This document shows positions 25,891-48,343 of a DNA stretch of 64,000 nt, one piece after another (positions within the stretch are counted from its first letter, which is position 1; each line of letters opens with the position of its first letter). The notes beneath the pieces are model-generated. The model ran no database searches. It was not told the DNA's origin and saw nothing but the letters and a program-made list of their open reading frames with translations. Source of the stretch: Flavobacteriaceae bacterium (lineage in GTDB: Bacteria; Bacteroidota; Bacteroidia; Flavobacteriales; Flavobacteriaceae); assembly GCA_028284005.1 (NCBI GenBank), contig JANQSO010000002.1, positions 124,001 to 188,000 on the forward strand, written 5' to 3'. Made by a program: the position numbers and the translations under genes.

Positions 25891-27507
25891 ATGAAAAAAT
25901 TATACTTCTTGCTATGCCTTTTTTTTACAATACCTCTGGTACAGGCTCAAATTGTTAATATCCCGGATGATAATTTTAGATTTGCATTATTGAATCATGA
26001 ATGGCCAACTATTGATACTAATGGAGATAACCAAATACAAGTAAGTGAAGCTGAGGCTGTTCATGGTAAACTAAAGCTTTATAATAAAGGCATACAGTCT
26101 TTAGAAGGCATACAATATTTCATCAATATTGAAGAATTACTCTGTCATGACAATCAATTAACCAGCCTTGATGTAACGCAAATTCCAACTCTCAAAAAGC
26201 TGTGGTGTCATGAAAATAATATTACAAGTCTCGATATTACACAAAATATTAATCTTGAAGAATTAAGCTGTAGCAGAAATCAATTAGATTTTTTGGATGT
26301 CACTAAAAATCTAAATCTCAAAATACTGTCTTGTTATAATAACAATTTGACAAGTATTGATGTATCTCAAAATTCGGACTTAGAAACGTTTTACATCTTT
26401 GATAATCCATTAACCAGCCTTGATGTAACGCAAAACACAAACCTTAAAAATCTATGGTGTGTTCGTAATGGATTAACAAGTATTGATGTGTCCCAAAACC
26501 TTCTTTTGGAAGAATTATATTGTCACGGAAATCAATTAGTGGCATTAGATGTATCTCAGAATTTATCTTTAAAGGACCTAAGGTGTTATGATAATCAATT
26601 AACCAATTTATCGCTTCAAAATCCGGCTCTTCAAAGATTAGAATGCAACAATAATCTATTAACTATCCTGGATGTGTCTCAATGCCAGGGTCTATTAACT
26701 TTGGATTGTTATGAAAACCAATTAACAAGCTTAATCACACAAAATCCGGCTCTGGAAAAAATAGATTGCCAGGATAATCAACTAACAGTGCTCGATGTAT
26801 CTCAAAACCCTAATCTTAAAGAATTGATCAGTAACAAAAACCTGCTGACCAGTTTAGACGTCTCTGATTGTTCGAACCTTCGCTGGCTAAACTGTAATGA
26901 TAATCAATTGGCAAGCCTGGATATAGCTTCAAATACAAATCTCTATTATTTGTATTGTAATCAAAATCAACTTACAAGTCTATATCCTCGTTTTAATACA
27001 AGGCTAAGATTAATAGAATGTGAAAACAACCTTTTAACTGAACTAGATCTTAGGCATAATCTTAATTTAAGAACATTAAATTGTAAAAACAATGACCTTT
27101 TAGGTTTAAACCTTAGAAGTAGCCGCAATGATCTGTTGTCTTCCATGAAGGCCATTAATAATCCTGATTTGCCCTGCATACAGGTAGAAGATGTGGAATA
27201 TGCAAATAACCACCCTAATTGGGAAAAGGATGTTTCTGCCATATATGCACAAGACTGTAACTTCTTTGGAATAGAAGAGTTTGAAGGTATATATATTACA
27301 CTATACCCCAATCCCGCAAAAGACGTCTTAAACATCACAAGTAATGAGCCCTTTGAAACATTAGAGATTTATTCTCTACAAGGTGCTGTTGTTAAAGAAG
27401 CTGCTTACGTACAGGAAATAAATGTTTCCGAATTACCAACAGGTCTGTATTTTATACAACTTGCTGTGAATGGAAAAACAGTTACTAAGAAGTTTGTGAA
27501 ACAGTAG
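25891..27507 (+). CDS. Secreted leucine-rich-repeat protein with EF-hand-like loop and T9SS sorting domain
   Basis: A 538-residue protein. A signal peptide (MKKLYFLLCLFFTIPLVQAQ) is followed by VNIPDDNFR and a canonical calcium loop DTNGDNQIQVSE (residues 43-54). About 16 leucine-rich repeats of roughly 21 residues follow (about 65-410, consensus LxxLxCxxNQLTSLDVSQN), many with a Cys at the LxC position. The C-terminal type A sorting domain (about 465-538) contains LYPNPAKDVLNI, LPTGLYFIQL and a KKFVKQ end. It should be exported by the T9SS and attached to, or released from, the cell surface, with binding or adhesion as the likely role. It lies between two polysaccharide operons and its 3' end overlaps a convergent gene by 23 bp. 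Confidence 0.9.
   Translation: MKKLYFLLCLFFTIPLVQAQIVNIPDDNFRFALLNHEWPTIDTNGDNQIQVSEAEAVHGKLKLYNKGIQSLEGIQYFINIEELLCHDNQLTSLDVTQIPTLKKLWCHENNITSLDITQNINLEELSCSRNQLDFLDVTKNLNLKILSCYNNNLTSIDVSQNSDLETFYIFDNPLTSLDVTQNTNLKNLWCVRNGLTSIDVSQNLLLEELYCHGNQLVALDVSQNLSLKDLRCYDNQLTNLSLQNPALQRLECNNNLLTILDVSQCQGLLTLDCYENQLTSLITQNPALEKIDCQDNQLTVLDVSQNPNLKELISNKNLLTSLDVSDCSNLRWLNCNDNQLASLDIASNTNLYYLYCNQNQLTSLYPRFNTRLRLIECENNLLTELDLRHNLNLRTLNCKNNDLLGLNLRSSRNDLLSSMKAINNPDLPCIQVEDVEYANNHPNWEKDVSAIYAQDCNFFGIEEFEGIYITLYPNPAKDVLNITSNEPFETLEIYSLQGAVVKEAAYVQEINVSELPTGLYFIQLAVNGKTVTKKFVKQ
26110..27130 (+). repeat. In-gene tandem leucine-rich-repeat array (about 63-nt period)
   Basis: About 16 degenerate units of roughly 21 codons encode the LxxLxCxxNxL repeat of the secreted protein. 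The protein pattern is conserved while DNA identity between units is only moderate, except a few near-identical stretches (AACCAGCCTTGATGTAACGC at 26160 and again near 26410). Confidence 0.75.
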
Positions 27508-28261
27508 TGATTTCGGCTATATCCCTTTTATTGAATATTTGCAGCTTCCCATCGATCGTATAGTCTGTAATAGGTACATTATTGGCTTCAAAATATTCCT
27601 TGCTCAATTGATATAGCTTTTCACTTGTATCCAGGTCCGGTATGCCCCAGAACTGCCCTTTAAAATAGTCTTTGCTGAAGTGATTTTCGTCATCACCTTC
27701 CATTTTATAGACTTCCTTATCCTTATTGAAGTTAAAACTATGGTCCAGACCAACTATATTTACATCCCTGGGCTCCAAATAAGCCGCTATCTGCAATGCT
27801 AAGAAAGTTACTGTACATCCGGAAGAAATTTTCTTTTCGATGTCCTTATTGACCTTAAATTCATCTTTTAAATTCAGAAAGAAAACATTATCTCTTTTTT
27901 TGACCCCTAAATAGTAGGCCTTTACGGGTACAAGTAACATACTATCTGTAGTATTAAAAAATTCCTTGTTCTGTTTTAATACCAGGCCATTGGTGCATAC
28001 TATAATTTCGGGCCTCCAGGAAGTTTTTTCGTAGATTAGATTGATCTTGTTCATCCCTATGGAAACCTTATCTATTGCATTTAAGGGGGTTTTATTTAAA
28101 CTGGGGCCATTGCAAACCAACAGTATCGACTTGTTAAAATAAGGGGTAAGCAAGTCCCATTTATTTTTTCGGGATAAGAAAGCGTTGTACAATATCCTAT
28201 CAATAATGCTCCGTGGATAGTGGGTATATACCCTAAGAAAGTTCAGCAACTTTTCTTTCAT
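27485..28261 (-). CDS. MptE/DUF115-like or GT42 (Cst-like) putative glycosyltransferase
   Basis: A 258-residue soluble protein. Key features are a nucleotide-sugar-type loop LLVCNGPSLNKT (residues 47-58), a following SIGMNKINLIYEKTSW segment, and later SSGCTVTFLALQIAAYL leading into DVNIVGLDHSF. This order (NGPSL, then SG.....A...A.., then hydrophobic strand ending D) is shared by MptE/MAF_flag10 (DUF115) proteins and by GT42 sialyltransferases, both tied to CMP-sugars or pterin substrates. It is the last gene of the second polysaccharide operon, overlapping the upstream polymerase gene by 29 bp, and is the only glycosyltransferase-like protein there. ATG 28261 is preferred over a TTG 9 nt upstream. 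A CMP-sugar transferase role is inference. Confidence 0.6.
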   Translation of the reverse strand: MKEKLLNFLRVYTHYPRSIIDRILYNAFLSRKNKWDLLTPYFNKSILLVCNGPSLNKTPLNAIDKVSIGMNKINLIYEKTSWRPEIIVCTNGLVLKQNKEFFNTTDSMLLVPVKAYYLGVKKRDNVFFLNLKDEFKVNKDIEKKISSGCTVTFLALQIAAYLEPRDVNIVGLDHSFNFNKDKEVYKMEGDDENHFSKDYFKGQFWGIPDLDTSEKLYQLSKEYFEANNVPITDYTIDGKLQIFNKRDIAEITTVSQTS

Positions 28262-29411
28262 TCTTAACAATTATAAGTGAGACTAATGCAATAAAAAACA
28301 AGGTGGGTTCAAAAGAATAAAATGTAGGTATGGATTCTGTAGTTCCCATCAACAAGATCATGACCATCAAAATTGTAATTATATACGATTTTAAACTAAT
28401 CATATATCTCAATAATTTATAAATAAGCCCCAAAATTATAATAATACCAACAATTCCAAAATCGATCATACATTGAAAAATAAAATTATGTGCGGTCTGG
28501 AGCCTTTGTTTGTCAAAAGACTCTTTTACAGAGTCCAGCATATTTGTTTCAAAACCATTGATCCCATACCCAAAAATCACCCTTAGATCACTCACAATAA
28601 CCTTTAGTGCTTCTCCAATGATGTCTATTCTTGAAATCACCTCTCCCGTTTTCTCTCCCGGTCTTTTAATAGCATCAAACAGAGATGTTCCATAGAAAAC
28701 ATACATAAAAGCTATTAATAAGACACTTAGGCCTAACCAGTATTTCTTCAAATAATAAATTATTCTTGTCAATGAAACCCAATAAATAAATGAAAATAGT
28801 ACTGTAAAGAATAGAATCAATCGTGAGTCCGCTAAAATAAGCATAAATATGTAAAAGCCATAGATAATTGCGTGTACTAACTTCTTGGGTGTTGTTTTAA
28901 TGAAATAAAGTGCTATCAAGGCATTTAAGGCCAATTGTGAGGTGAAAATATTTGCGCCGGAAGATAACGGGAAATAAATTCTATAGCCAAAAACACCAAA
29001 CATCCCCATGATACTATTGATCCCCCTCTGCTGATCGGAAAAATACAATACGTAAAATATATAATTGGAAATATTATATATTAAAAAAGTAATTAGTAAA
29101 TATCGTAAAGCCTGGTTAATCGTTTTGTTCTTAAAATAGGTTAGCGTGAATACAAACCATATCCAAAAGGTTAGTAAAACGGCAACATCCCTAATATAGA
29201 CTTCGCCGAAAATAAGCCCATGGACCATCACGGCAATAATTGTTACAAATGAATAAAAAGTATACTTTGGAATTTTATTGATCCGTTTTAAAGGAGTTCT
29301 TTTAATGATCGAAAAGGCAATCAGGGCAAATACAACAATGAACCACACTATTTTTTGTGATCCTTCCAGATAGGCAACAATTCTCAATAAAAGTAAAAAT
29401 AAGTAGATCAC
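28233..29411 (-). CDS. O-antigen polymerase/ligase family protein (Wzy/WaaL-like)
   Basis: A 392-residue membrane protein with about ten helices. The outer loop (about 250-300) contains SDLRVIFGYGINGFETN and is followed by QTAHNFIFQCMIDFGIVGI, the Wzy_C signature (G-x-G then HN...G..G). It would polymerise repeat units or ligate polymer at the periplasmic face. It starts with GTG overlapping the flippase stop (GTGA, 4 bp) and overlaps the MptE-like gene downstream. Together with the larger 30642-32498 protein it gives this operon two members of the family; which is polymerase and which ligase is not decided by sequence. Confidence 0.82.
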   Translation of the reverse strand: MIYLFLLLLRIVAYLEGSQKIVWFIVVFALIAFSIIKRTPLKRINKIPKYTFYSFVTIIAVMVHGLIFGEVYIRDVAVLLTFWIWFVFTLTYFKNKTINQALRYLLITFLIYNISNYIFYVLYFSDQQRGINSIMGMFGVFGYRIYFPLSSGANIFTSQLALNALIALYFIKTTPKKLVHAIIYGFYIFMLILADSRLILFFTVLFSFIYWVSLTRIIYYLKKYWLGLSVLLIAFMYVFYGTSLFDAIKRPGEKTGEVISRIDIIGEALKVIVSDLRVIFGYGINGFETNMLDSVKESFDKQRLQTAHNFIFQCMIDFGIVGIIIILGLIYKLLRYMISLKSYIITILMVMILLMGTTESIPTFYSFEPTLFFIALVSLIIVKNERKVAELS

Positions 29412-30664
29412 CGTATTTTATAATAATTTAGTAGTGCAAATCCTCCCTGGATCAATACAAAAATAGTCATGATCAATAACAGCCAAAACTGTTCGTTAAT
29501 TGATGGGATCATAATAGGCAATGTGAACACTATCGCCATAACAATGTATTGAATATAATTCAATTTAATAATATTGGAAAATAATTTATTATAAATTAAA
29601 ATGAACACAAAAGGCTGTACAATTGCAAAGAGTACAGCGGCCAAAGATACTTTAATTAATAACATTCCATATTCCGAATATTTTTCGAAAAACCATAATA
29701 ATATCTGATCGTTAAGCATTGTAAATACAATAAGTAATGCAATAATAAAAGGAGCAAGGGTCTTGACCATTCTTCTATACATTTTGTTGAAAAATGACCT
29801 GGTGATTATTTCATCGCTTTTAACGGTAATCTTAGACTGAAACCCGGATACTACAGAAATTGTCAACAGGCTAAATACATTGTAAAACTGATACATTATA
29901 TGAGCATATGCCACAAACAGGTCTCCAAAATATATTTGTCCTAAATACCTAACCCCAAAATTTGAAAGCACTTCATTCCCCCTCAAAATAGTATAGTTTA
30001 AGCCTAATTTAAAGTCTTTAATGGAAAAATCCCTAAAACTAATCCCGTAGGAATTTATAGAAAGGTCAAACTTTCGTTTAAAAAGTATAAGGCATACAAC
30101 AGCAGTTATTATCAATGATATCAATAACATGAGCATTACTACAAAAATGTCATTATAATAATAGAGGCCACAAATGCTCGTAACAAAGAATAAGAGATAG
30201 AATAAGAAGTCTTCAATAAAAATTGACAAAAACAAATTGTTGTCTGCTTTCGCAAATTCTGATAAGTTCCTAATAACCACATAACACAGTAAACAGGGTA
30301 TAAAAATAATTGCGACCCAGATTTCTTCAAATAAAAATAAGGATGCAATAAAGAAGATTACGCTAAAAGAAATACATGTTAAAATGATATTGGCCGACAC
30401 ACTCTTTGGCCATTTCCCCTTATTAATTAAATAATCCCGAACCTTATCGAAATAAATGATATACAAATTATTTGAAGAATAAAATGTAAACATCCTGAGG
30501 CTGGCCCAGATGACCGCAAAATCCGCGAAGTCCTTAATAGAAAGCTTAAATGAAAAGAAGGATAGTAAAATTAAAAACAATACCCGCCCAAAAGACTTAC
30601 CAAACAAATTGATGAGCCCCAGGTTTTGTGTAATTCTGTTTTTATACTTCTCTGGTAGTTTCAT
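29408..30664 (-). CDS. Lipid-linked oligosaccharide flippase (Wzx-like)
   Basis: A 418-residue protein with about 12 membrane helices and basic cytoplasmic loops, starting MKLPEKYKNRITQNLGLINLFGKSFGRV. The spacing of helices and the FADFAVIWASLRMFTFYSS segment near residue 45 fit polysaccharide-export flippases of the MATE-like superfamily. It would move undecaprenyl-linked repeat units to the periplasm for the neighbouring Wzy-like enzymes. It overlaps the upstream gene by 23 bp and the downstream gene by 4 bp, so all three membrane proteins are translated in a coupled way. Similarity is structural rather than motif-based, hence moderate certainty. Confidence 0.8.
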   Translation of the reverse strand: MKLPEKYKNRITQNLGLINLFGKSFGRVLFLILLSFFSFKLSIKDFADFAVIWASLRMFTFYSSNNLYIIYFDKVRDYLINKGKWPKSVSANIILTCISFSVIFFIASLFLFEEIWVAIIFIPCLLCYVVIRNLSEFAKADNNLFLSIFIEDFLFYLLFFVTSICGLYYYNDIFVVMLMLLISLIITAVVCLILFKRKFDLSINSYGISFRDFSIKDFKLGLNYTILRGNEVLSNFGVRYLGQIYFGDLFVAYAHIMYQFYNVFSLLTISVVSGFQSKITVKSDEIITRSFFNKMYRRMVKTLAPFIIALLIVFTMLNDQILLWFFEKYSEYGMLLIKVSLAAVLFAIVQPFVFILIYNKLFSNIIKLNYIQYIVMAIVFTLPIMIPSINEQFWLLLIMTIFVLIQGGFALLNYYKIR

Positions 30665-32498
30665 CTTTGGAATTTGTTGTGAAAAGTATAAATAACATCA
30701 TAGAAATAAACATTAATCCCCAATGTCTTGCCAGAATGTTTTCAGTTAAGAAGTTTAAACCAATAACAATCACAAAAGTTAATTGCAAAATATTACGGTT
30801 CTTAAAGGATATATACAATAATAATAATAAGCTTATAACAAACCCTAATAAACATATAACTCCTCCCGAAAGCAGAAAGAACAGATAGTTGTTATGGGTG
30901 TTCAATTTTTCAGAGATTACATAATCTATTAACTCAAAATTGTTTTTTACGTATGCCGTTGGCATTTGTGCTTCTTCAATTTGGGCTCCCCATAGGAGTA
31001 TTTCTTTTGCGCTGGATTTATAGATATAATCTGCATTTTCATTTGAAATTCCTATTATCACCAGTGCAGAATCAACATTTGTAACTGTAATCGAGCATCT
31101 ATACCATTCACCCATCGCCGGAGTAATTCTTGCCTCGGTAATACCCTCTCCCTTTGCCTTTATGGTTCCTTCCATCAAATTAAATGTAGCCCTATGAGGC
31201 AATTCTCCTAATCTTAAAATAAGGTAATTAGCGGAACCTTTTTTAGCAAAAACTGAAAATGTATAGGTTCGATTTTTGTCCAGTAAAATATCTGTAGACA
31301 AATTATGTGAAGCGGCTATTTCATTGTTCTGTTCAATAAGCCGGTCTGCATTCTTCTTTTGGTCAGGGGACAATTCTGAATTTGGCACAATCTCAATATT
31401 GTTTCTAAACCAGTAATCACTGTTGAATTGTTCGTTGTAAAGAAGTATATTTTTTGTTTTATTGACACTCAATCTTTCTTTAAGTTCATTGTGCAATGTA
31501 GCTTGTGCGTCTCCAATCCCATATCCAAAGATAATTTCACTCGCTGTAGCTCTTTTCCATAAATTGGAAACCGATTTGTATATCTCTACCCGCGCATCAT
31601 TGTCTTCAACAGATTCTTGATATACAACTGATCTAATAAAATTAAACCCCTTTACAACTCCTATATCTTTAGACTTATAAAAAACTCCTGTCAAAAGAAC
31701 CCCTAATACAATAGTCCCCGGGACTAAAAATTTCTTTAGCTTCAACCTGCTTTTGTTTGCCTTACCCCACCCAAAAAGGATAATACAAATGAACAGAGCT
31801 AGTACATTAGGAAATGAAAAGGTATATAAAATTAAAAGCAGGAAATAAAAAAAGAAAAATAGATATAACAAGCTTTTCTTTTTATGCTTATTAAAGCATC
31901 GTGTGGATTCCCGCAAGGCAAATATTGCCGAAATCACAAACCCCATCGAAAAATATGGTTTGTGAATAAATAGGATATCTTCTAAAAAAGTTCCCAGAAT
32001 TACTTCATTCAATACAAACTGAACTTTATCGTAATTCAATAAAAAATTACTGCTGTTTATTCCCTCCAGCCCAATTATATCCTTATTTAGCACATACATT
32101 GCGGCCAAGAAAACGGAATATAGAAAATTGACCCCTAAAAACACATTGAGGACCGTGTCCCTTATTGAACTACTGATCTTAGGTCTAAAAAAAATGATCA
32201 CAAAAGGGACAATAAAAAGCGGTATTAATTGCATTGTCTTTTCTAATCCATAGCCTATATCTGTAGAATAAAAAGAAGAAAGTAATAATATTGTGAAAAA
32301 TGAAGTGGCTGCCAGAAACAGTTTTATATTAGAAGCTGTAAAAAGGTACGTACCCCTTTTTACAGAGAAATAGACACTAACAACACAAGATGTTATTAAA
32401 ATAATTGAAGAGTAATTAAATTTTAATAATGGATAAAATGCTAATAATGAAAATAATATGTAAAGTAAATTGAATTTACTTTTTAGAACTTGCTTCAT
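30642..32498 (-). CDS. O-antigen polymerase/ligase with carbohydrate-binding-like domain inserted in the main outer loop
   Basis: A 618-residue protein, much longer than ordinary Wzy/WaaL proteins (about 400). Residues 1-300 are membrane helices and the start of the outer loop; EIIFGYGIGDAQATLHNEL (321-339) and LNTHNNYLFFLLSGG (532-546) are the two halves of the Wzy_C signature. Between them, residues about 346-520 form a beta-rich segment of the kind seen in phage tail-spike and LamG-like carbohydrate-binding modules: NILLYNEQF..W, RTYTFSVFAKKGS, GEWYRCSITVTN, ILLWGAQIEEAQMPTAY. Three more helices follow. The insert should face the periplasm and could bind growing polymer or acceptor. It overlaps its neighbours by about 23 bp on both sides. 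Confidence 0.85.
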   Translation of the reverse strand: MKQVLKSKFNLLYILFSLLAFYPLLKFNYSSIILITSCVVSVYFSVKRGTYLFTASNIKLFLAATSFFTILLLSSFYSTDIGYGLEKTMQLIPLFIVPFVIIFFRPKISSSIRDTVLNVFLGVNFLYSVFLAAMYVLNKDIIGLEGINSSNFLLNYDKVQFVLNEVILGTFLEDILFIHKPYFSMGFVISAIFALRESTRCFNKHKKKSLLYLFFFFYFLLLILYTFSFPNVLALFICIILFGWGKANKSRLKLKKFLVPGTIVLGVLLTGVFYKSKDIGVVKGFNFIRSVVYQESVEDNDARVEIYKSVSNLWKRATASEIIFGYGIGDAQATLHNELKERLSVNKTKNILLYNEQFNSDYWFRNNIEIVPNSELSPDQKKNADRLIEQNNEIAASHNLSTDILLDKNRTYTFSVFAKKGSANYLILRLGELPHRATFNLMEGTIKAKGEGITEARITPAMGEWYRCSITVTNVDSALVIIGISNENADYIYKSSAKEILLWGAQIEEAQMPTAYVKNNFELIDYVISEKLNTHNNYLFFLLSGGVICLLGFVISLLLLLYISFKNRNILQLTFVIVIGLNFLTENILARHWGLMFISMMLFILFTTNSKDETTREV

Positions 32499-33426
32499 TT
32501 ATCATTCTTATTAAATTTCTTACAGCCATTGTTCCTTGCTTCTCAACACTTTGATATGTTCTTGAACCCACATGGGGTGTTATGATAATATTTTCAATTC
32601 CTCTTAGCACTTCGTTTTCCAAAATAGGTTCTGTTTCCAGAACATCTGCCAAGTAGCCTCTAATCTTTTTTTCTTTTAGCCCTTCAACAATGGCTTGGGC
32701 ATCTACCAATTTTCCTCTTGCCGTATTAATTATAACAGGTGTCTTTTTCAGCCTATTAAAAATGACGTTCCTGTTTATTAAATGCTCCGTTTCTTGTGTG
32801 TGTGGTACATGTAAGCTTATAAAATCGGCTTTCTGAAATATTTCATCAATATCCTTTACAAAGCTAATATCATTATAGCTGTTAAGGAAAGCTTCATCTT
32901 TAAACACATCGTATGCTATTACATGAAGGCCCAAAGCATGTGACCTTTTTGCAAGTTCTTTTCCAATAGCTCCAAGGCCAATAATTCCTATCGTCTGGCC
33001 ATAAACCTCTCTCCCAATCCATCTTTTCCAACTACCCTCCTGGGTACTTATATGCTGCAGATGAATGTTTTTTTCGAAAGTTAATACTAGCGCCAATACA
33101 TGTTCAGCCACAGAAACTTGATTTACTCCCGGACAATTTGAGACCGGAATTCCAAGTTCGCGGCAAGCATTCAAATCTATTTTATCTAATCCTACACCAT
33201 ATTTAGAAATAAACTTCAGTTTTCCTTCCTTTCCTTTCTTTAGTACTGCAGAGGTATACTCATCATCTCCGCAGATCACAGCATCGTACTCTTGTATTAT
33301 GGGCAGCAAAACGTCTTCTGAAACAGGGCCTCTCAGCACATCAACCGAAAATCCTTGACTATTTAAAAGTTTTTGATGGTCTCCGGGAGTGTCTTGAAAA
33401 GATGTTGATGTTAATAATATTCTCAT
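32476..33426 (-). CDS. D-2-hydroxyacid dehydrogenase (phosphoglycerate dehydrogenase-like)
   Basis: A 316-residue NAD-dependent enzyme with the full catalytic set of the D-isomer 2-hydroxyacid dehydrogenases: Rossmann loop GIIGLGAIGKELAKR (around residue 147), arginine in NTARGKLVD (around 233), glutamate in DVLETEPI (around 260) and histidine in ITPHVGSRT (around 283). It lacks the C-terminal ACT domain of SerA, so it is probably not the serine-pathway enzyme. It lies in the cassette with an aldolase and a CMP-sugar synthetase-like enzyme, 4-bp overlap with the HAD gene, and probably oxidises or reduces a sugar-acid intermediate. The substrate is unknown. Confidence 0.85.
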   Translation of the reverse strand: MRILLTSTSFQDTPGDHQKLLNSQGFSVDVLRGPVSEDVLLPIIQEYDAVICGDDEYTSAVLKKGKEGKLKFISKYGVGLDKIDLNACRELGIPVSNCPGVNQVSVAEHVLALVLTFEKNIHLQHISTQEGSWKRWIGREVYGQTIGIIGLGAIGKELAKRSHALGLHVIAYDVFKDEAFLNSYNDISFVKDIDEIFQKADFISLHVPHTQETEHLINRNVIFNRLKKTPVIINTARGKLVDAQAIVEGLKEKKIRGYLADVLETEPILENEVLRGIENIIITPHVGSRTYQSVEKQGTMAVRNLIRMINEASSKK

Positions 33427-34076
33427 TCTAAATGGGGTTTAAGAAGGTTTTCAAAATCATGAAAATTTACAAATCTAAGGCCGTTGTAATCTTTAAATAA
33501 TTCTCTGTTCTCATCATGCTCTCTTAAGGCAAAATGTGTTTTTGAATAAAGAGCAGCTTCATAATCTGTTGTAGCATCACCCAAAAACAAGGTTTCCTCT
33601 CGTTTAAGGCTAAACTTTTCAATTAAGAATTCAGTCCAAAATTTCTTTTTTTCGGGTGAGCCATGAAGTCCCAAAAAATAGTGACTCAAAGAGCGCTGGT
33701 TGGCAATATCTATTATCTCCTGAGTAGGTGTCCCGGTTATAATCCAAAATTGTAAGTGCTTATAATACTTTTCTAAAAAAGCTTTGGCTCCTGTAACCTC
33801 ATTAGAATCGATAACCTTTTTCAATACCAGGTTTGAAAATTTTTTCGCTAGTTCCTGAACTTCTTGTTCCGAAATATCCCGATGCAAGAATTCGGTATGA
33901 TAGATTTTGAATTTTTCATAACGGGAAACGCCTCCGTGGTATATATGATGATCAACCACTTTAGCGGCAATCTCTTCTCCATAGGGGAGATATAGCTCTT
34001 TAAAAGCTTCGGTTTTTGCATTGACAGACTCTGCTAAAACTCCGTCAAAGTCGAAAAATATATTTTTTATTTTCAT
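33423..34076 (-). CDS. HAD superfamily phosphatase
   Basis: A 217-residue HAD hydrolase with motif I FFDFDGVLAES (nucleophile and acid Asp), motif II in ITGTPTQE (around residue 108), and motif IV LGDATTDYEAA (around 165). The helical cap lies between motifs I and II. It likely removes phosphate from a sugar-phosphate, the role KdsC or NeuB-pathway phosphatases play before CMP activation. The start at 34076 overlaps the stop of the preceding gene as TGATG; an ATG at 34097 would add seven residues before the conserved KIKNIFFDFDG and is less likely. Substrate inferred from context. Confidence 0.85.
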   Translation of the reverse strand: MKIKNIFFDFDGVLAESVNAKTEAFKELYLPYGEEIAAKVVDHHIYHGGVSRYEKFKIYHTEFLHRDISEQEVQELAKKFSNLVLKKVIDSNEVTGAKAFLEKYYKHLQFWIITGTPTQEIIDIANQRSLSHYFLGLHGSPEKKKFWTEFLIEKFSLKREETLFLGDATTDYEAALYSKTHFALREHDENRELFKDYNGLRFVNFHDFENLLKPHLE

Positions 34077-34777
34077 CAATTCTTGGAAATGATCCAACTC
34101 ATTTTTAAATCGGACTTTACTAATTTGTGTATAGGGTATATTGATTCTTCAAGAGTATAAAGCTCTTCAACGATCTTTCTTTTTTTCTCTCCTTTAATTA
34201 AGACTATTGCTTCGCCGGAATTTTTAATTACCGGAAATGTTAGCGTAATTCTATGACTGTTTAACTTAGGAACATAGTTTTTTACCACACTTTGTGTGTT
34301 TTCATTTAATGCTTCGGTGCCGGAAAACAGAGAAGCGGTATGCCCATCTTCTCCCATGCCCAGAAGAATTAGATCAAAAAAAGGTTGGTTATGGTTCCTT
34401 GTGGGAATATGTGTTTTTAAAGCCTTTATATACGCTTCAACAGCAGTGTCTATTTGATAACCTTCCTTTACCATTGGATAATTATTCGATGGGATGTGTT
34501 TAAAAAAGGAATCATAGATATTCTTATAATTGCTTTGATCACTTTTAACTGAGACAAATCTTTCATCTACCATAAAAAAATTGAACAATTCCCATTTTAG
34601 GTCAAAGTCCTTTAAAAGATTATATATCGGTAAAGGAGTTCTCCCTCCGGATAAGCCTATGTTAATTTTCGTATTTGTATTTTGAAGTACTTCCAGCTTT
34701 TCTTTTAAAATACCCGCTGCAAAAACATCAAAACTTGACTCGTCAGTCTCATATAACATGGGGGAGTTATCGCTCAT
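34076..34777 (-). CDS. 6-phosphogluconolactonase-like protein
   Basis: A 233-residue protein of the 6PGL/NagB fold with LSGGRTPLPIY (around residue 43), FMVDERFV (around 70) and the 6PGL-type signature LGMGEDGHTASLF (around 138-150). 6PGL hydrolyses 6-phosphogluconolactone in the pentose phosphate pathway. Finding it inside a polysaccharide operon, without zwf or gnd beside it, suggests hydrolysis of another sugar lactone made in the same cassette, or a local copy recruited for it. Overlaps the preceding gene by 11 bp and the HAD gene by 1 nt. Confidence 0.82.
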   Translation of the reverse strand: MSDNSPMLYETDESSFDVFAAGILKEKLEVLQNTNTKINIGLSGGRTPLPIYNLLKDFDLKWELFNFFMVDERFVSVKSDQSNYKNIYDSFFKHIPSNNYPMVKEGYQIDTAVEAYIKALKTHIPTRNHNQPFFDLILLGMGEDGHTASLFSGTEALNENTQSVVKNYVPKLNSHRITLTFPVIKNSGEAIVLIKGEKKRKIVEELYTLEESIYPIHKLVKSDLKMSWIISKN

Positions 34778-35648
34778 TTTTATAAACAGCTCTTATGCAT
34801 TCCAATAGCCCCTGTCCCATATCAATATGTGGGTTTGCAATAAGTTTTTTGCTCACAGAGGGTTCAAAAGAATATGGGGTAAATTTATAATGATGTTCAT
34901 ACCCGGTATTATTATAGCTTATTTTTACCCTATCACTTAATATTTCATTTATCATGTCAAAAAGTTCCATTCTTTTAATCCTTTCGGTTCCCGTAAGGAT
35001 AACATGTAAATTATCATATTCATTAGATTCTATAACATCCGCAGATAATTTCGCCGCGTCAGCCGCGTGTATGTATTCTCTTATTTCGTTGCCATCTCCT
35101 CTGTGTTCGATCTTAGACTCCAGAACTGCCTTTTTCACTAAATTATATACATAGTTATTATCATAAGATCTCTCCGAATATACAGAGCCATATCTTAATA
35201 TTATAAAGGAGAGGTCCTTCTTTTTGTGGTATTCTTCAATAATTTTTTCTGAAGCTAACTTACTTATACCGTAAAAAGAGCCCTTATTGCTCATCGCATA
35301 AGCGCTACTGGCATATACAAATTTTGATATGTTATTTTTGACGCATTCTTCCAGAATGTACATATTTCCAATAACATTTAACTGTATGGTCCTAATAGGA
35401 AACTTAGTGGCATTATCTAGGTTAGCAAATCCAGCTAAATTATATACAACTTCAAATTTTCCTGATTGAAATACATTTTCAACATCTTCTCTGTCAAGAA
35501 TATCACATTTAATATAGTTTACTCCTTCTGGTGATTCCTTGTTTTCAAAAATATCTGCGACGGTAACTTCATGTCCTCTTTTCACCAATTCTTGAATTAG
35601 GTAAAAACCTAAAAATCCATATCCTCCAAATACTAAAATATTTTTCAT
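34767..35648 (-). CDS. NAD-dependent epimerase/dehydratase family protein
   Basis: A 293-residue extended SDR with the NAD loop FGGYGFLGFYL (residues 7-17), KFVYASSAYA (around 110) and the catalytic YGISK (around 125), plus REYIHAADAA near 193, common in nucleotide-sugar epimerases and dehydratases. It lies directly downstream of the aldolase gene (9-nt gap) and overlaps the lactonase-like gene by 11 bp. The substrate is probably a nucleotide sugar or a sugar acid of this cassette; nothing in the sequence fixes it. Confidence 0.82.
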   Translation of the reverse strand: MKNILVFGGYGFLGFYLIQELVKRGHEVTVADIFENKESPEGVNYIKCDILDREDVENVFQSGKFEVVYNLAGFANLDNATKFPIRTIQLNVIGNMYILEECVKNNISKFVYASSAYAMSNKGSFYGISKLASEKIIEEYHKKKDLSFIILRYGSVYSERSYDNNYVYNLVKKAVLESKIEHRGDGNEIREYIHAADAAKLSADVIESNEYDNLHVILTGTERIKRMELFDMINEILSDRVKISYNNTGYEHHYKFTPYSFEPSVSKKLIANPHIDMGQGLLECIRAVYKNER

Positions 35649-35657
35649 CCTTTACGC

Positions 35658-36443
35658 TTATAATTTACTTCTAAGTAAGCTCATTTCTTCCCTGGCTTTA
35701 TCTCCTAAAAAGAAAAAATCCAGGCTAAATGCCAGAAGAGAATATCTTTTATCAATTTTTTCGATCATTTTTAAATGGTCAGAATCAATAACATGAAACC
35801 CTAATGGTTTTTTCTTTTCAAGAGTTATTTTGTCAATTCTTTTCAAAACCTCCTTTACATCATCATCATCAAACATTCCCGGCTTACCCATAGAAGCAGA
35901 AAGGTCATAGGGCCCTACAATAATACCGTCAATTCCTTCAACATCGAGGATTTCAGCTAAATTTTCTACCGCGCTAATATGCTCTATTTGAACAATTACA
36001 ACAGACTCTTCTTGTACCCATTTTTTATAGGATTCAAACCCAATTCCATAGTGTTGGGCTCTTGAAAGTCCAACTCCTCTTTTTCCAAAGGGTGGGTATT
36101 TGGTAAAAGCTACAGCATCCCGTGCTTCATTTGCGTCTTTAACCATAGGGACAATAACTCCGTTTGCCCCGGCATCCATCACTCTTTTAATAACAACCTC
36201 ATCATTTTTACTAACTCTTACCAATGCCTCCATATCATTTGCCTGAATATGCCCAATAAGGTTCTGGGTTGTTTGAAAGTCTATTGCAGAATGCTCAATA
36301 TCAATTGTAAGCCATTCGAAACCGGCAGAAGACATGATCTCTACAATAGATTGATGAGGAATGGTTAACCAGGAACCAAGGGTTAACTCATTACTTGCAA
36401 GTTTAGCCTTAAGTTTACTTTTAATATGTGAAAAATTTTTCAT
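35658..36443 (-). CDS. HpcH/HpaI family aldolase (class II 2-oxo-3-deoxy acid aldolase type)
   Basis: A 261-residue TIM-barrel protein with all metal and catalytic residues of the HpcH/HpaI (GarL) family: LTIDIEHSAID (catalytic His, about residue 51), VRVSKNDEVVIKRVMDAGANG (Arg and Asp, about 75-95), PPFGKRGVGLSRA, VQIEHISAVEN (metal Glu, about 152) and IVGPYDLSASMG (metal Asp, about 178). Such enzymes join pyruvate to an aldehyde, or cleave 2-oxo-3-deoxy sugar acids. The gene lies 47 nt downstream of a CMP-sugar synthetase-like gene. This suggests synthesis rather than breakdown of a 2-oxo-3-deoxy acid for polymer use, which would be an unusual role. Confidence 0.88.
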   Translation of the reverse strand: MKNFSHIKSKLKAKLASNELTLGSWLTIPHQSIVEIMSSAGFEWLTIDIEHSAIDFQTTQNLIGHIQANDMEALVRVSKNDEVVIKRVMDAGANGVIVPMVKDANEARDAVAFTKYPPFGKRGVGLSRAQHYGIGFESYKKWVQEESVVIVQIEHISAVENLAEILDVEGIDGIIVGPYDLSASMGKPGMFDDDDVKEVLKRIDKITLEKKKPLGFHVIDSDHLKMIEKIDKRYSLLAFSLDFFFLGDKAREEMSLLRSKL

Positions 36444-36489
36444 CTGTCAATCTAATGCTTTAATTCAACCTTTATTGTGTACAAGAAAA

Positions 36490-37194
36490 CTATGTTACGG
36501 TTTTAAATATGGCCTCTGCCAATACAAAATCCTGAGGCTCATCAATATCAACTGCTTCTAACTTATCCAGTTCAAACATATAAGGGGTTTTACCAATTCT
36601 CTTATTTCCATTTTCTTTAAAGGACGCTTTACTGAAAATAAAAAAGTTCGAGTTCTCTTCATATAATGGGGGAAGATCCTGGGTGCGTATCAATTCATTC
36701 GGGTTGTGGTTCACCGGATTTCCTTTTTCATCAAACAACCTGGTTTGAATTTTTGTTACAGAAAAAATTGAATCGTGTGATCTTTTTTTGAATAGTTCCA
36801 CCATTTTTTCAATAGCATTATCTATAGATTCAACTTTTAATAAGGGATTTGTACTATGTGTTTGAAAATAGAAAGTAGCATCTATCTTTGAGATATCGAA
36901 TGCGATAATGTCATTCATTGAAACACAATCTCCTTGTATTTCTTCGGGCCTGTTGTGTATTTTGACCCGATCATCAAAATTGAGTTGAATATCGTTCTTT
37001 ATATTTTCACTATCTGTATTAACAACTACAGCGCTTATGTATTTTGAAGCAAGAAGTGATTCTAAAACCATGTGATATAATGGTTTACCACAAAAATGCA
37101 TCAGGTTTTTATTGGGTATTCTTTCAGAGTGACCCTTCATTGGTAAAAGTGCAACTATTTTTACCATATCTATTTCTTTATTGCTATCACTCAT
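36490..37194 (-). CDS. Acylneuraminate cytidylyltransferase family protein (CMP-sugar synthetase-like)
   Basis: A 234-residue nucleotidyltransferase with LLPMKGHSERIPNKNL (residues 17-32), the CTP-binding loop of NeuA/KdsB-type enzymes in the MKGHSERIPNKN variant, and a C-terminal DIDEPQDFVLAE that supplies metal ligands. These enzymes make CMP-activated acidic sugars (Neu5Ac, Kdo, Pse, Leg). No NeuB or KdsA-type synthase is nearby; the neighbour is an HpaI-type aldolase. ATG 37194 is used; ATG 37167 (MVKIVALLPM) is an equally good alternative nearer the loop. Located 39 nt after the fcl stop. Confidence 0.85.
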   Translation of the reverse strand: MSDSNKEIDMVKIVALLPMKGHSERIPNKNLMHFCGKPLYHMVLESLLASKYISAVVVNTDSENIKNDIQLNFDDRVKIHNRPEEIQGDCVSMNDIIAFDISKIDATFYFQTHSTNPLLKVESIDNAIEKMVELFKKRSHDSIFSVTKIQTRLFDEKGNPVNHNPNELIRTQDLPPLYEENSNFFIFSKASFKENGNKRIGKTPYMFELDKLEAVDIDEPQDFVLAEAIFKTVT

Positions 37195-37233: not shown

Positions 37234-38334
37234 CTAATGTGCTTCTGAAACATACCAAAGATATATCTTTTTTATTCCATCGTTCAATTCTACGGTATGT
37301 TTCCAACCCAATTTATTTAGCTTGGAGCTATCCGTTAATTTTCTCATTACTCCGTCCGGTTTTGCAGTATTAAACACGATTTTTCCCTTAAAATCGATTG
37401 TTTTCTTAATGGTTTCGGCCAATTCCTGTATTGTACTGTCTGTTCCGGTACCAACATTTAAATGCGTGTTTCTTATCTCAGTTTGGCCTTTTTCGTACAT
37501 ATCTGAAAAATCTCTATTCTCCATTAAAAAAACACAGGCATCTGCCATGTCCTGGCTCCATAGAAATTCCCGCTTTGGTTTACCACTGCCCCAAACTTCA
37601 ACAGAAACAACGCTGGAGTCTTTAGCATCCTTTGTAACTCCGTATTTAGATAACATGTTGCGTATTTCCTCTTCTGTGGCAGTCCCATTTACCCCTTCTA
37701 TAGGGCGCTTGGACAAGTCTTTTCTTATCGCTTCCCAATCATTATTCTCCAAAGCTTTTCCTAAGTGAATTTTTCTGACCAAAGCAGGTAATACATGTGA
37801 TTTCTCCAGGTCGAAATTGTCATTATATCCATACAAGTTCGTAGGCATAACCGAAATAAAGTTTGTGCCGTATTGTAAGTTATAGCTTTCGCACATCTTA
37901 ATTCCGGAAATTTTAGCAATTGCATAGGGCTCATTGGTATACTCCAAAACATCGGTAAGAAGATATTCTTCTTTTATAGGCTGAGGACAATTTTTTGGAT
38001 AGATACAAGTACTTCCAAGAAATAATAGCTTCTTTACGCCATGAAGATAGCTTTGATGAATAACATTGTTTTGTATGGTTATATTTTCATATATAAAATC
38101 TCCTCTATACTTATTATTTGCAACAATTCCGCCTACTTTTGCGGCCGCCAAAAAAACATATTCCGGAGTTTCTTCTTCAAAAAACCTCGCAGTGGCTATT
38201 TGATCGGTCAAATCCAGCTCTTTGTGTGTTCGCGTAACAATATTATGATATCCCTTGCTCTGCAACTGATTCATAATAGCACTGCCAACAAGCCCTCTGT
38301 GGCCTGCAATATATATTTTAGATCCTTTGTTCAT
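37234..38334 (-). CDS. fcl: GDP-L-fucose synthase
   Basis: A 366-residue epimerase-reductase that turns GDP-4-keto-6-deoxy-mannose into GDP-L-fucose. Motifs: YIAGHRGLVGSAI (NADP loop), AAKVGGIVANN (around residue 65), LGSTCIYPKNCPQPI (around 108) and the catalytic EPYAIAK. A roughly 45-residue insertion around 195-245 (containing EGVNGTATEEEIRNMLSKYG) makes it longer than the E. coli enzyme, as in other Bacteroidota. It overlaps the SGNH lipoprotein gene by 17 bp and pairs functionally with gmd two genes upstream. Confidence 0.94.
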   Translation of the reverse strand: MNKGSKIYIAGHRGLVGSAIMNQLQSKGYHNIVTRTHKELDLTDQIATARFFEEETPEYVFLAAAKVGGIVANNKYRGDFIYENITIQNNVIHQSYLHGVKKLLFLGSTCIYPKNCPQPIKEEYLLTDVLEYTNEPYAIAKISGIKMCESYNLQYGTNFISVMPTNLYGYNDNFDLEKSHVLPALVRKIHLGKALENNDWEAIRKDLSKRPIEGVNGTATEEEIRNMLSKYGVTKDAKDSSVVSVEVWGSGKPKREFLWSQDMADACVFLMENRDFSDMYEKGQTEIRNTHLNVGTGTDSTIQELAETIKKTIDFKGKIVFNTAKPDGVMRKLTDSSKLNKLGWKHTVELNDGIKKIYLWYVSEAH

Positions 38335-39706
38335 CTCTTTCCAAATAAGGCCTGTAAACCAATAATTCTTTAAGTCTGGTATCGCCGTTCAATATTTTTA
38401 GCTTTAACGAATGTTTTTCGTTTTCAAAACTTCTAAACAATGTATACTTTAAGATATTAGGGTTTAAAGTTATTGTGTCTTTTGCTACAGGAATAACCTT
38501 GAATTTAACTTTGAAGTTTGCCGGGGTTTCTTTTTGAATAATTCTTTCGATATCAAAAAGATAAAAATCTTCCTTGTTTATTATTATTCGTTTAGAATTC
38601 GACTCAAAATCTGAATTTGAATCCCCTTTGCCGTCAAATCCTGTAATGCTGCCGGCAACTTCGTAATTAAATGTTCTTTTTTCTCTGTCTATTTCACAAA
38701 AAGTAAGTTCCCATTCTTCTGTTCTGGGAAATGTTTTTCCTAAAGTTATTTTTTTGATCATAGGCATCCAGCTTTTAAATCCTATGCTGGGCCTGGTAAC
38801 ATAGTATGAGCTCCTAAAGCTTGAAGGTGGCTCCCCATCTACTAAAACCTGTATTTTTGTGTCCTTGTCAACAATAGTATCAAGCGCCAATTCAACTCTG
38901 TTGCCTGTAAATTCTTTTCTATGTAGCCGCTTACCCTTACGTAACGAAACGGTTTGTCTTAATTTATCTTTGCCGGGATTGTAATTGTTACTTATACTAA
39001 CACTATCCAATAAACGTGAAATAATAATATCTCTTAATAGTTTATCTCCTTCGTCATTAGGATGAACTTCAGGGTTTATAGTGTCACCTATTAAGACATT
39101 TACACCCAAATTATTATCCTCCAGATAATTTGCCCATTGTTCTCGTAAGTTCACATAACCACAATCATATTTCTTCGCAATTTTCTTTATCGCAAGAGAC
39201 TCAATACTATCAATTATATTTCGAGATTTTAGTCGTGTCTGGGAAGTATCCCAAATGTAATGATGGTCAAACAATAAGATCTCTGAACTCATTCTACTTC
39301 TAATGGTTCGTATCAAGCTATCAAATATGCCATCTTTTATTCCATTATAGGCATGAAAAACAACAAGGTCCGGGTTTTTGTGATACAGGTCGTGTTCGGC
39401 AGTTTTAATTAAGCTTGGAGCTGTAAATCCTCCTATTGCTTTATTTGAATGGTTTATCTTGACTGAAGGGAATATTTTTTTTAATGAATCAACAAGGAGG
39501 CTGGACTTCATTCCGCCAACAATAGATTGGCCATAGAAGAATATATCCAATTCATTAGGCTGTTCCGGAGTACTGTTATATAATATTGACAAAGATCTGT
39601 CTATTCCGTTATATCGAATTAGATCTTCGTTGGACTTTTCTCCGGCACAAGAACAAATGAAAATTAAAGAGCAAAGTAAAATGCTTTTTAAAACCCCGTT
39701 TCTCAT
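38318..39706 (-). CDS. SGNH/GDSL-type hydrolase lipoprotein
   Basis: A 462-residue protein with a lipoprotein signal (lipobox FICSC, Cys20) and an SGNH-like domain: FFYGQSIVGG (nucleophile Ser, around residue 60), AYNGIKDGIF (block with Asn, around 120) and EVHPNDEGDKLL (His, around 220). The canonical Asp three residues before the His is a Pro here, with a Glu two before it. A beta-rich C-terminal half (about 250-462) could bind carbohydrate. SGNH enzymes add or remove O-acyl groups from polysaccharides. Its place between gmd and fcl suggests trimming or acylating a fucose-containing polymer at the envelope. Activity is inferred. Confidence 0.75.
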   Translation of the reverse strand: MRNGVLKSILLCSLIFICSCAGEKSNEDLIRYNGIDRSLSILYNSTPEQPNELDIFFYGQSIVGGMKSSLLVDSLKKIFPSVKINHSNKAIGGFTAPSLIKTAEHDLYHKNPDLVVFHAYNGIKDGIFDSLIRTIRSRMSSEILLFDHHYIWDTSQTRLKSRNIIDSIESLAIKKIAKKYDCGYVNLREQWANYLEDNNLGVNVLIGDTINPEVHPNDEGDKLLRDIIISRLLDSVSISNNYNPGKDKLRQTVSLRKGKRLHRKEFTGNRVELALDTIVDKDTKIQVLVDGEPPSSFRSSYYVTRPSIGFKSWMPMIKKITLGKTFPRTEEWELTFCEIDREKRTFNYEVAGSITGFDGKGDSNSDFESNSKRIIINKEDFYLFDIERIIQKETPANFKVKFKVIPVAKDTITLNPNILKYTLFRSFENEKHSLKLKILNGDTRLKELLVYRPYLERDEQRI

Positions 39707-46846: not shown

Positions 46847-48343
46847 TTAAGGTTGTAATTTAACCAGTGCATCTGCTATCTTTCGGTCATTTGCGAGCCT
46901 GGGTGTCTTGTTTTGGCCCCCCAATTTTCCTTGGGACCTCATATAATCGTTGAAACTATTTCTTACTAAAGGTCTAATCTTTAAAGGCTGAAGTACTTTT
47001 CCTTTGATCAGGTCAAAGTAATACGAATTCTGTTTTTGCAAAGACGCATCTAAAGCGCCAGCGATCTGCAAAAGATCTTTGGGTTCTACTTCAAACTCGA
47101 TCAGCCATTCATGATATGGTAATTCTCCGGTTTCTACTTGCATTTTCGGCGCCACTGTAAATTCAGAAATTGAAAAATTGAACTGCTCTATAGTTTCTTG
47201 CATGGCTTGTTCAACTTCTTTCCCTATCACATGTTCTCCAAAAGCCGAAATAAAGTGTTTGATTCGGCCCGAAACAATTAAACGATACGGATTTGTTGAT
47301 GTGAACTGAACTGTATCTCCCAGGTTATAAGCCCATAGGCCGGCATTTGTAGAGATGATCATTACATAATTAACTCCGGTTTTCACTTCGCCAATGGTAA
47401 GTCTGGGCGCATCTTTTTCAAAAAACCTGGAAGATTCAACAAACTCATAAAAAATTCCCGAATCCAATTGAAGCAGCATCCCTTTTTCATTCTGCTTGTC
47501 TTGAAAAGCAAAAAATCCTTCGCTGGCAGGAAATAATTCAATACTGTTTACTTTTCTTCCTATGAGATCCTCAAATTTGGCACGATACGGTTCATAATTA
47601 ACTCCGCCGTAAATGAAAAGGTCAAAATTTTTAAATAGTTCACCAACTTTTTTGCCTGTTGCCGCATTTAATCTTTCAAAATACATCTGAACCCAGGAAG
47701 GAATCCCGCTAATAACAGTCATATTCTGGTTCTTTGTCTCTTCTACAATGGCATCAACTTTAGATTCCCAATCTTCTATACAATTGGTTTCCATACTGGG
47801 TAATCTGTTTTTTTGAAGATAGCCGGGGACATAATGAGCTACTATTCCGGAAAGCCTGCCAAGTTTAATGCCATTCTTTTCAGATAGTTTTGGACTTCCC
47901 TGTAAAAAGATCATCTTACCGTCAACAAAATTTGCATTTCCTGTTTCGTTGATATAAAACAAAATAGCATTTCGGGCCGCATTGATATGCGATGGCATTG
48001 AAGCTTTGGTAAGCGGAATATACTTGGCACCGCTGGTGGTTCCGGATGTCTTTGCAAAATAAAGTGGTTTTCCGGGCCAGAGAATGTTTTCCTGACCGCT
48101 TACCACTCGTTCTACATACGGTTTTAATGCCTCATAATCTCTTATAGGCACTTGTTCTGCAAAGTCTTCAGGAGCTATAATACTATGGAAATTGTGGTCT
48201 TTTCCAAATGCAGTGTCTTTGGCTTCGGCAATTAATCTTTTAAGAACACGACGCTGTGTTTCCTGTGGCTTTTTCGCCCACTTATACGTGCGGTAAACCA
48301 CAACTTTCGCAAAAATTTTAGCTGCAAAGGATTTTAAAGACAT
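46847..48343 (-). CDS. GH3-like acyl-adenylate-forming protein
   Basis: A 498-residue protein of the GH3 (auxin-responsive) type. The ATP-binding loop is YFAKTSGTTSGAKYIPLT (around residue 105), followed by a mid-domain YGGVNYEPY (around 250) and EGFFAFQD (around 285) near the acid substrate site. The C-terminal lobe contains GRIKHFISAFGEHV. Plant members conjugate amino acids to hormones; bacterial members are common in Bacteroidota with unknown substrates. It follows the M23 peptidase gene by 6 nt, which hints at envelope-related work, but no function can be assigned. Confidence 0.88.
   Translation of the reverse strand: MSLKSFAAKIFAKVVVYRTYKWAKKPQETQRRVLKRLIAEAKDTAFGKDHNFHSIIAPEDFAEQVPIRDYEALKPYVERVVSGQENILWPGKPLYFAKTSGTTSGAKYIPLTKASMPSHINAARNAILFYINETGNANFVDGKMIFLQGSPKLSEKNGIKLGRLSGIVAHYVPGYLQKNRLPSMETNCIEDWESKVDAIVEETKNQNMTVISGIPSWVQMYFERLNAATGKKVGELFKNFDLFIYGGVNYEPYRAKFEDLIGRKVNSIELFPASEGFFAFQDKQNEKGMLLQLDSGIFYEFVESSRFFEKDAPRLTIGEVKTGVNYVMIISTNAGLWAYNLGDTVQFTSTNPYRLIVSGRIKHFISAFGEHVIGKEVEQAMQETIEQFNFSISEFTVAPKMQVETGELPYHEWLIEFEVEPKDLLQIAGALDASLQKQNSYYFDLIKGKVLQPLKIRPLVRNSFNDYMRSQGKLGGQNKTPRLANDRKIADALVKLQP

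Follow-up and report, generated by a model that had tools for sequence, protein, structure and literature searches.

A conserved six-gene cassette of Bacteroidota with a predicted NeuB/KdsA-independent route to a CMP-activated 2-ulosonic acid

Introduction

How might a bacterium supply its surface polysaccharide with a cytidine monophosphate (CMP)-activated 2-oxo sugar acid (ulosonic acid) when the genes at hand include no synthase of the usual kind? This question is raised by six minus-strand genes at positions 32476-37194 of a 64,000-nucleotide stretch of DNA from a Flavobacteriaceae bacterium (assembly GCA_028284005.1, contig JANQSO010000002.1, positions 124,001 to 188,000), referred to here as the window. 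As far as we know, every established route to a CMP-ulosonic acid (sialic, pseudaminic or legionaminic acid, or Kdo) relies on a phosphoenolpyruvate (PEP)-dependent synthase of the NeuB/KdsA family. NeuB serves as a marker of sialic-acid-like sugars in genome surveys. The original prediction, made from the letters of the window, was that the six genes may build a new CMP-activated 2-oxo-3-deoxy sugar acid by means of an HpaI-type aldolase. Comparison with related genomes now provides good evidence that the cassette is a real and widespread pathway of CMP-ulosonic acid biosynthesis, with a chemistry that is predicted from its genes. Searches of a literature library for this gene combination returned no published description and nothing relevant.

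Results

Gene content and conservation of the cassette

The coordinates of the open reading frames (ORFs) and family scans bear out six tightly packed genes of the families first proposed, all on the minus strand. A CMP-sugar synthetase-like cytidylyltransferase of the CTP_transf_3 family, PseF/NeuA-like (36490-37194, 234 aa; PF02348, 106 bits), is followed by an HpaI-type class II aldolase (35658-36443, 261 aa; PF03328, 112 bits), an extended short-chain dehydrogenase/reductase (SDR) of the epimerase/dehydratase family (34767-35648, 293 aa; PF01370, 137 bits), a 6-phosphogluconolactonase-family lactonase (PGL; 34076-34777, 233 aa; PF01182), a HAD phosphatase with an intact DFDGV motif (33423-34097, 224 aa; PF13419, 44 bits) and a phosphoglycerate-dehydrogenase-like D-2-hydroxyacid dehydrogenase (DH; 32476-33426, 316 aa; PF02826, 174 bits, and PF00389). 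Each of the six exceeds the Pfam gathering score of its family. Adjacent genes overlap by 4-22 bp or are separated by gaps of 9-46 bp; the HAD ORF begins with TTG, and an internal ATG is a possible true start.

A profile search with the SDR over 84,980 species genomes gave 22 strong relatives, and genome searches added further loci. For comparison, 26 loci were used: the window, L032, L033, L040-L061 (minus the duplicate L048), L099 and L100. The order cytidylyltransferase-(DUF386)-aldolase-SDR-(lactonase)-HAD-DH is kept in 25 of them, the window included, across Flavobacteriaceae, Chitinophagaceae and other Bacteroidota. The rearranged locus is L054; L049 ends at a contig edge just upstream of the aldolase, and the aldolase of L059 was located by tblastn. 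Since one gene order is thus shared by all but one of the 26 loci, the six-gene arrangement is a real conserved unit, far beyond chance. None of the 26 loci matches NeuB when the NeuB of the window genome (G000) is the query, and the check that the original prediction had set itself, co-occurrence of the families without NeuB in related genomes, is therefore positive. The core enzymes of the relatives are approximately 45-82% identical to those of the window, the exception being the DHs of five loci (32-36%). The genes flanking the cassette vary between loci, and in the tree the aldolases of a Flavobacterium and a Polaribacter locus (L042 and L045) are near-identical; near-identity in differing surroundings suggests that the cassette may have moved horizontally.

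NeuB in the window genome and its relatives

G000 is 99.95% complete, and the closest relatives found for it are Flavobacteriaceae, many of them from marine genera. The PEP-dependent synthase (PF03102) that defines a NeuB-type pathway is not present in the window locus. The proposed lack of NeuB/KdsA thus stands for the cassette locus but not for the whole genome, which carries one NeuB on contig C8, approximately 2 kb from a cytidylyltransferase of its own. These two genes belong to a second polysaccharide locus (L039, contig C8, 175001-195000), by which G000 probably produces, in addition, an ordinary nonulosonic acid. In total, G000 has three CTP_transf_3 genes: one on contig C6, presumably KdsB judging from its score, one beside NeuB on C8, and one in the cassette. 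With the other two in place, the cassette enzyme was ruled out as the partner of Kdo synthesis or of NeuB.

A NeuB elsewhere that served the cassette, together with a purely degradative aldolase, had been named at the outset as evidence against the proposal. The NeuB of G000 has its own activating enzyme, however, and when 25 cassette or related genomes were searched with the Pfam model, 13 lacked NeuB altogether, including the near-complete G215, G299 and G552; Maribacter flavus and Flavobacterium akiainvivens are examples of cassette carriers without it. On the strength of these 13 genomes, the idea that the cassette generally depends on a NeuB encoded elsewhere was ruled out. That the pathway leads to a CMP-ulosonic acid without NeuB is, in our judgement, likely.

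A lactonase slot that varies with the presence or absence of glucose-6-phosphate dehydrogenase

The cassette PGL scores 159 bits against the 6-phosphogluconolactonase model TIGR01198 (cut-off 124.45 bits) and is the sole PF01182 protein of G000, in which a genome search found no glucose-6-phosphate dehydrogenase (Zwf, PF02781). A housekeeping role in the pentose phosphate pathway was ruled out on these grounds. Between SDR and HAD, PGL occupies the slot in 15 loci and an unrelated cyclase-family hydrolase (PF04199) in 5, and the slot is empty in 5 ordered loci. Four of the empty slots (L033, L044, L046 and L053) belong to genomes with Zwf and another PGL, and the fifth (L056) to a genome with an orphan PGL elsewhere. 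Zwf is absent from the searched cassette genomes that carry PGL or the cyclase, including the Maribacter of L049, whose PGL-less congeners have Zwf. The association between lactonase and Zwf has a Fisher p = 6e-4, uncorrected for phylogeny.

The same pattern is visible from the outside. Among 249 Flavobacteriaceae genomes, Zwf is found in 49 and PGL in 51, and the only two with PGL and no Zwf, G000 and G057, are both cassette carriers. By hand arithmetic, with no phylogenetic correction, the chance of this is about 3 in 19,900, given at most three carriers among 200 Zwf-less genomes (G000, G057, and G112, the last counted by its cytidylyltransferase alone). Taken together, these patterns suggest that a lactonase is needed for the pathway and that a housekeeping PGL can stand in for it; the comparative case for this is strong but not final. 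This need indicates a 6-phosphogluconolactone-like intermediate, and a lactone in the pathway is accordingly rated as probable. The proposed opening of a lactone is thus supported by the slot and Zwf pattern; the SDR as the enzyme that forms the lactone is not established, its closest folds being nucleotide-sugar 4-epimerases.

The aldolase and its histidine 217

The active site of the aldolase is intact, as had been read from the window: E50, H51, R76, E154 and D180 are invariant in 34 sequences and are the counterparts of the catalytic and metal-binding residues Glu46, His47, Arg72, Glu151 and Asp177 of AbHpaI (PMC8560999). The Glu and Asp that bind the metal in HpcH/HpaI class II enzymes are therefore in place, as are the catalytic His and Arg, and the protein shares these and the fold with the catabolic aldolases HpaI, YfaU and GarL and with SwHKA. 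In a profile search, its closest solved structures are YfaU and HpaI of E. coli. The named catabolic equivalogs in NCBIfam were nevertheless not reached (HpaI 169, GarL 157-160 and YfaU 148 bits, against cut-offs of 369-441).

Unlike HpaI and YfaU, the cassette aldolase lies in polysaccharide loci with a cytidylyltransferase alongside and no catabolic genes around it, and in the alignment it has His217 at the position taken by Leu212 in EcHpaI and by a Leu in YfaU. This His is present in 32 of 32 polysaccharide-locus aldolases, down to approximately 37% identity, and is Phe in the solitary homologues L096 and L097. In SwHKA, F210 contacts the C3 atom of bound hydroxypyruvate (PMC10099721). Judged from alignment offsets, His217 would stand at or next to the F210 position, which suggests a nucleophile or substrate other than plain pyruvate. 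Enzymes of the HpcH/HpaI family take pyruvate, and some take hydroxypyruvate, with glyceraldehyde or erythrose, sugar-like aldehydes, as acceptors (PMC7610986).

Dehydrogenase, phosphatase and cytidylyltransferase

The nearest structures to the DH are phosphoglycerate dehydrogenases, and its residues R237, E266 and H285 are invariant in 23 sequences. Although the original prediction gave the DH no role, it could oxidize the lactonase product and thereby generate the 2-oxo group, a tentative assignment with a little less than an even chance. The HAD protein is 40-65% identical in 22 relatives, with D16, D18, K151, D174 and D178 invariant; a profile search with it was uninformative. The best NCBIfam model for the cytidylyltransferase is PseF (90 bits, cut-off 205.7), KdsB models score lower, and no named CMP-sugar synthetase cut-off in NCBIfam is reached. 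Its PDB matches are CMP-Neu5Ac synthetases, and its motifs are common to 25 relatives at 48-69% identity.

Several variants of these genes were seen outside the ordered loci. A 590-aa fusion of a CTP_transf_3-like N-terminal domain with a D-2-hydroxyacid dehydrogenase (L089:5681-7453) is a hint that cytidylyltransferase and DH may act in one pathway. G112 encodes a fusion of a cassette-type cytidylyltransferase with a family 2 glycosyltransferase (L034:4046-5758), on a short contig that carries no other cassette gene. In L036 and L037, an HAD protein 29-33% identical to that of the cassette lies beside a cytidylyltransferase of 34-36% identity; the pair is preceded by a 516-517-aa protein, and no aldolase is present.

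Partner genes and wider loci

The six-gene list was correct in itself, but it overlooked a putative CMP-sugar transferase in the window and could not include an anomerase and an alternative lactonase that are visible only in relatives. The transferase (27485-28270, minus strand, 261 aa) is MptE/GT42/Maf-like. It scores 33.5 bits against PF01973, just under the cut-off of 34.6, which its homologue in L033 exceeds, and its profile matches the GT42 sialyltransferase CstII (E 2.7e-4). The best Foldseek matches of its AlphaFold2 model (predicted local distance difference test, pLDDT, 89) are Maf 5mu5, MptE, CstII and ST8SiaIII (5mu5 E 1.9e-4, 1ro8 E 3e-3, TM about 0.5). Homologues occur in 11 related loci, thus in 12 loci in all. 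DUF386 lies beside the cytidylyltransferase gene or between it and the aldolase gene in 15 of the 26 loci, including the rearranged L054. Together, the DUF386 and GT42/Maf-like partners indicate that the product is a CMP-activated 2-ulosonic acid.

In E. coli, the DUF386 protein YhcH works as a sialate anomerase in support of a catabolic aldolase (PMC8141875). The joint presence of aldolase and DUF386 genes in the 15 related loci recalls the E. coli nan genes (NanA and YhcH); NanA, however, belongs to the class I aldolases and the nan system serves to break down sialic acid, whereas the cassette has an activating enzyme and no transporter or kinase.

More distant loci (L088, L089 and L091-L095) retain the aldolase and often the DH, but with a KdsB-like cytidylyltransferase, called by sequence and tested with a hidden Markov model (HMM) in L088. 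In L054, L088, L090 and L098, the aldolase and DH are accompanied by a Gfo/Idh oxidoreductase, a GmhA-like isomerase, an AroB-related phospholyase and a FabG-like SDR; this set was HMM-tested in L098, where the phospholyase exceeds the TIGR04425 cut-off. These clusters probably make a different ulosonic or cyclitol-type sugar. L098 also carries the cyclase-type hydrolase, and its genome has no Zwf.

The surrounding polysaccharide cluster

The cassette sits in a polysaccharide cluster with sugar genes of the GDP-fucose and dTDP-rhamnose types, among which the FCL-like gene was assigned by Pfam/NCBIfam and GMD and RmlA-D by sequence reading. An O-antigen ligase/polymerase-like membrane protein (30642-32498, minus strand, 618 aa) has a weak match to PF04932 Wzy_C (29.4 bits, E 8e-7, cut-off 31.7), and its gene has 23 bp in common with the DH gene, which links the end of the cassette to the polysaccharide operon. 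A lipoprotein-like ORF of 462 aa without a Pfam/NCBIfam match (38318-39706) lies between the fcl-like and gmd-like genes, and a GH3-family (auxin-conjugase-like) acyl-adenylating protein is encoded near the cluster (46847-48343).

Discussion

Proposed pathway

Based on the results presented above, we moderately favor an operon-encoded pathway that would supply a surface polysaccharide with a CMP-activated 2-oxo sugar acid independently of NeuB and KdsA. Its full scheme may be outlined as follows. The SDR would oxidize a sugar phosphate at C1 to a lactone, which the PGL-family lactonase would open to a 2-hydroxy acid phosphate, and the DH would oxidize this compound at C2. The HpaI-type aldolase, whose reaction class is read from its intact catalytic residues, would form or re-form the bond between C3 and C4 in the 2-oxo acid, possibly with a C3-hydroxylated donor because of His217. 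The HAD enzyme would then strip the phosphate, the cytidylyltransferase (assigned by family) would form the CMP-sugar, and the MptE/GT42-like transferase would use it; in relatives, the DUF386 anomerase would interconvert forms of the ulosonic acid. The product class, the dispensability of NeuB and the need for a lactonase are the parts that the comparative evidence supports.

Several points weigh against this scheme. Every step is a prediction from sequence, predicted folds and gene context. The aldolase is hard to place in a lactone route, since the lactonase product carries no aldehyde. The enzyme that would form the lactone is a candidate only: the SDR, 55-75% identical in 24 relatives, has an AlphaFold2 model (pLDDT 89) whose nearest folds are UDP-glucose 4-epimerases, its fold search matched only nucleotide-sugar epimerases and their relatives, and its GDG.E.REYIHA motif is like theirs, so that it could be something other than a C1 dehydrogenase. 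Cassette genomes with Zwf retain the SDR, which also leaves unsupported the idea that it is a plain Zwf substitute. Its proposed role, as a sugar-phosphate C1 dehydrogenase or an epimerase, is thus the weakest link. In addition, the trees place few independent events behind the lactonase/Zwf pattern (about two to four clades), and a genome search found no DUF386 in G000. Pfam/NCBIfam scans found no KdsA in the cassette, although KdsA was not searched for genome-wide.

Alternative explanations

The origin of the 2-oxo group is the point on which the evidence divides. In line with the original prediction, the aldolase may join pyruvate, or hydroxypyruvate derived from 3-phosphoglycerate by DH and HAD, to a sugar aldehyde, so that an ulosonic acid of the 3-deoxy or 3-hydroxy type would arise directly, with SDR, PGL and DH preparing or modifying acceptor or product. 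The intact catalytic residues, the known use of pyruvate and in some cases hydroxypyruvate with glyceraldehyde or erythrose by HpcH/HpaI enzymes (PMC7610986), the closeness of the DH to phosphoglycerate dehydrogenases and its position next to HAD, and a His217 at or next to the residue of SwHKA that touches hydroxypyruvate C3 (PMC10099721) are all consistent with this route. It would leave the well-supported lactonase without a natural role, however, and no gene obviously supplies the aldehyde acceptor; as a complete account it is possible but doubtful. The narrower claim of a condensation between an aldehyde and pyruvate or hydroxypyruvate by the aldolase, which is compatible with a DH that creates the 2-oxo group, comes close to an even chance without reaching it. 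That the 2-oxo group arises by oxidation is, in our view, just as likely as a pyruvate aldol. The original proposal of a CMP-activated sugar-acid cassette stands as far as a compact, conserved unit without a NeuB/KdsA gene is concerned, but pyruvate condensation and a 3-deoxy product are not established.

In a purely oxidative route, SDR, lactonase and DH would turn an aldose phosphate into a 2-oxo-aldonate phosphate, and the HpaI-fold protein would act as a C3/C4 epimerase, by retro-aldol cleavage and re-addition or by enolization, without building the chain. The lactonase yields a 2-hydroxy acid, a compound of the kind that enzymes like the neighboring DH act on, and the dependence on a lactonase seen in slot occupancy and Zwf pattern argues in the same direction, as do the related clusters with isomerase, Gfo/Idh, DH and phospholyase, the archetype of AroB-type phospholyases acting on a heptulosonate phosphate. 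Aldolase-fold epimerases occur in other families, for example L-ribulose-5-phosphate 4-epimerase, but we know of none in the HpaI family, and the role of the SDR is unproven, with epimerase-like folds. This route as a whole is rather unlikely.

It is improbable that the cytidylyltransferase activates a non-ulosonic compound and that the cassette makes some other CMP-linked building block; scores under every named CMP-sugar synthetase cut-off would allow it, but the DUF386 and GT42/Maf-like partners, the closeness of the enzyme to PseF and CMP-Neu5Ac synthetases and the KdsB-like enzyme that fills the same role in wider loci all speak for an ulosonic acid. Finally, an ordinary nonulosonic acid or Kdo pathway with its synthase in trans, the aldolase recycling or degrading excess product like sialate aldolases, could invoke the one NeuB of G000, the KdsA search confined to the cassette and the service of a YhcH-type anomerase to a catabolic aldolase (PMC8141875), but it is very improbable in view of the 13 NeuB-less genomes, the separate cytidylyltransferase of the G000 NeuB and a fixed gene order with DH, HAD and lactonase that is not expected of a degradative aldolase.

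Comparison with known systems and implications

The favored NeuB/KdsA-independent pathway resembles the NeuB-type pathways (CMP-Neu5Ac, CMP-Pse and CMP-Leg) in its CTP_transf_3 enzyme, its polysaccharide locus and its CMP-sugar-transferase-like neighbor; an HpaI aldolase, a lactonase and a D-2-hydroxyacid dehydrogenase are present instead of NeuB. With the Kdo pathway (KdsA, KdsC and KdsB) it would share, by analogy, a phosphorylated 2-oxo sugar acid, an HAD phosphatase and CTP_transf_3 activation, but the cassette has no KdsA, the HAD protein is of the HAD-IA type, the cytidylyltransferase is PseF-like, and lactone and dehydrogenase steps would be added. The EpaA/EpaB module for 8-epipseudaminic acid likewise pairs a CTP_transf_3 domain with a dehydrogenase partner, in the tailoring of a nonulosonic acid; there, a fusion of CTP_transf_3 with an aldo/keto reductase works with a classical SDR to modify a product that NeuB has already made, without an aldolase (PMC12053666). 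Epimerization of a finished nonulosonic acid in this manner was set aside on account of the different gene set.

On a wider scale, the loci may represent a second, NeuB/KdsA-independent route to CMP-2-ulosonic acids across Bacteroidota, a generalization for and against which we see the balance as even. Its components would be a biosynthetic HpaI-type subfamily, recognizable by the Leu-to-His replacement beside the nucleophilic carbon, a D-2-hydroxyacid dehydrogenase and a step through a phosphosugar lactone, in versions that depend on PGL or the cyclase, that use a PseF-like or KdsB-like activating enzyme, and that include AroB-related phospholyases. If the proposed pathway is true, strains without NeuB would still make sialic-acid-like sugars. 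It would also give an anabolic role to enzymes whose family is familiar chiefly from catabolic pathways and from biocatalysis, and would explain why some genomes without the oxidative pentose phosphate pathway keep a phosphogluconolactonase.

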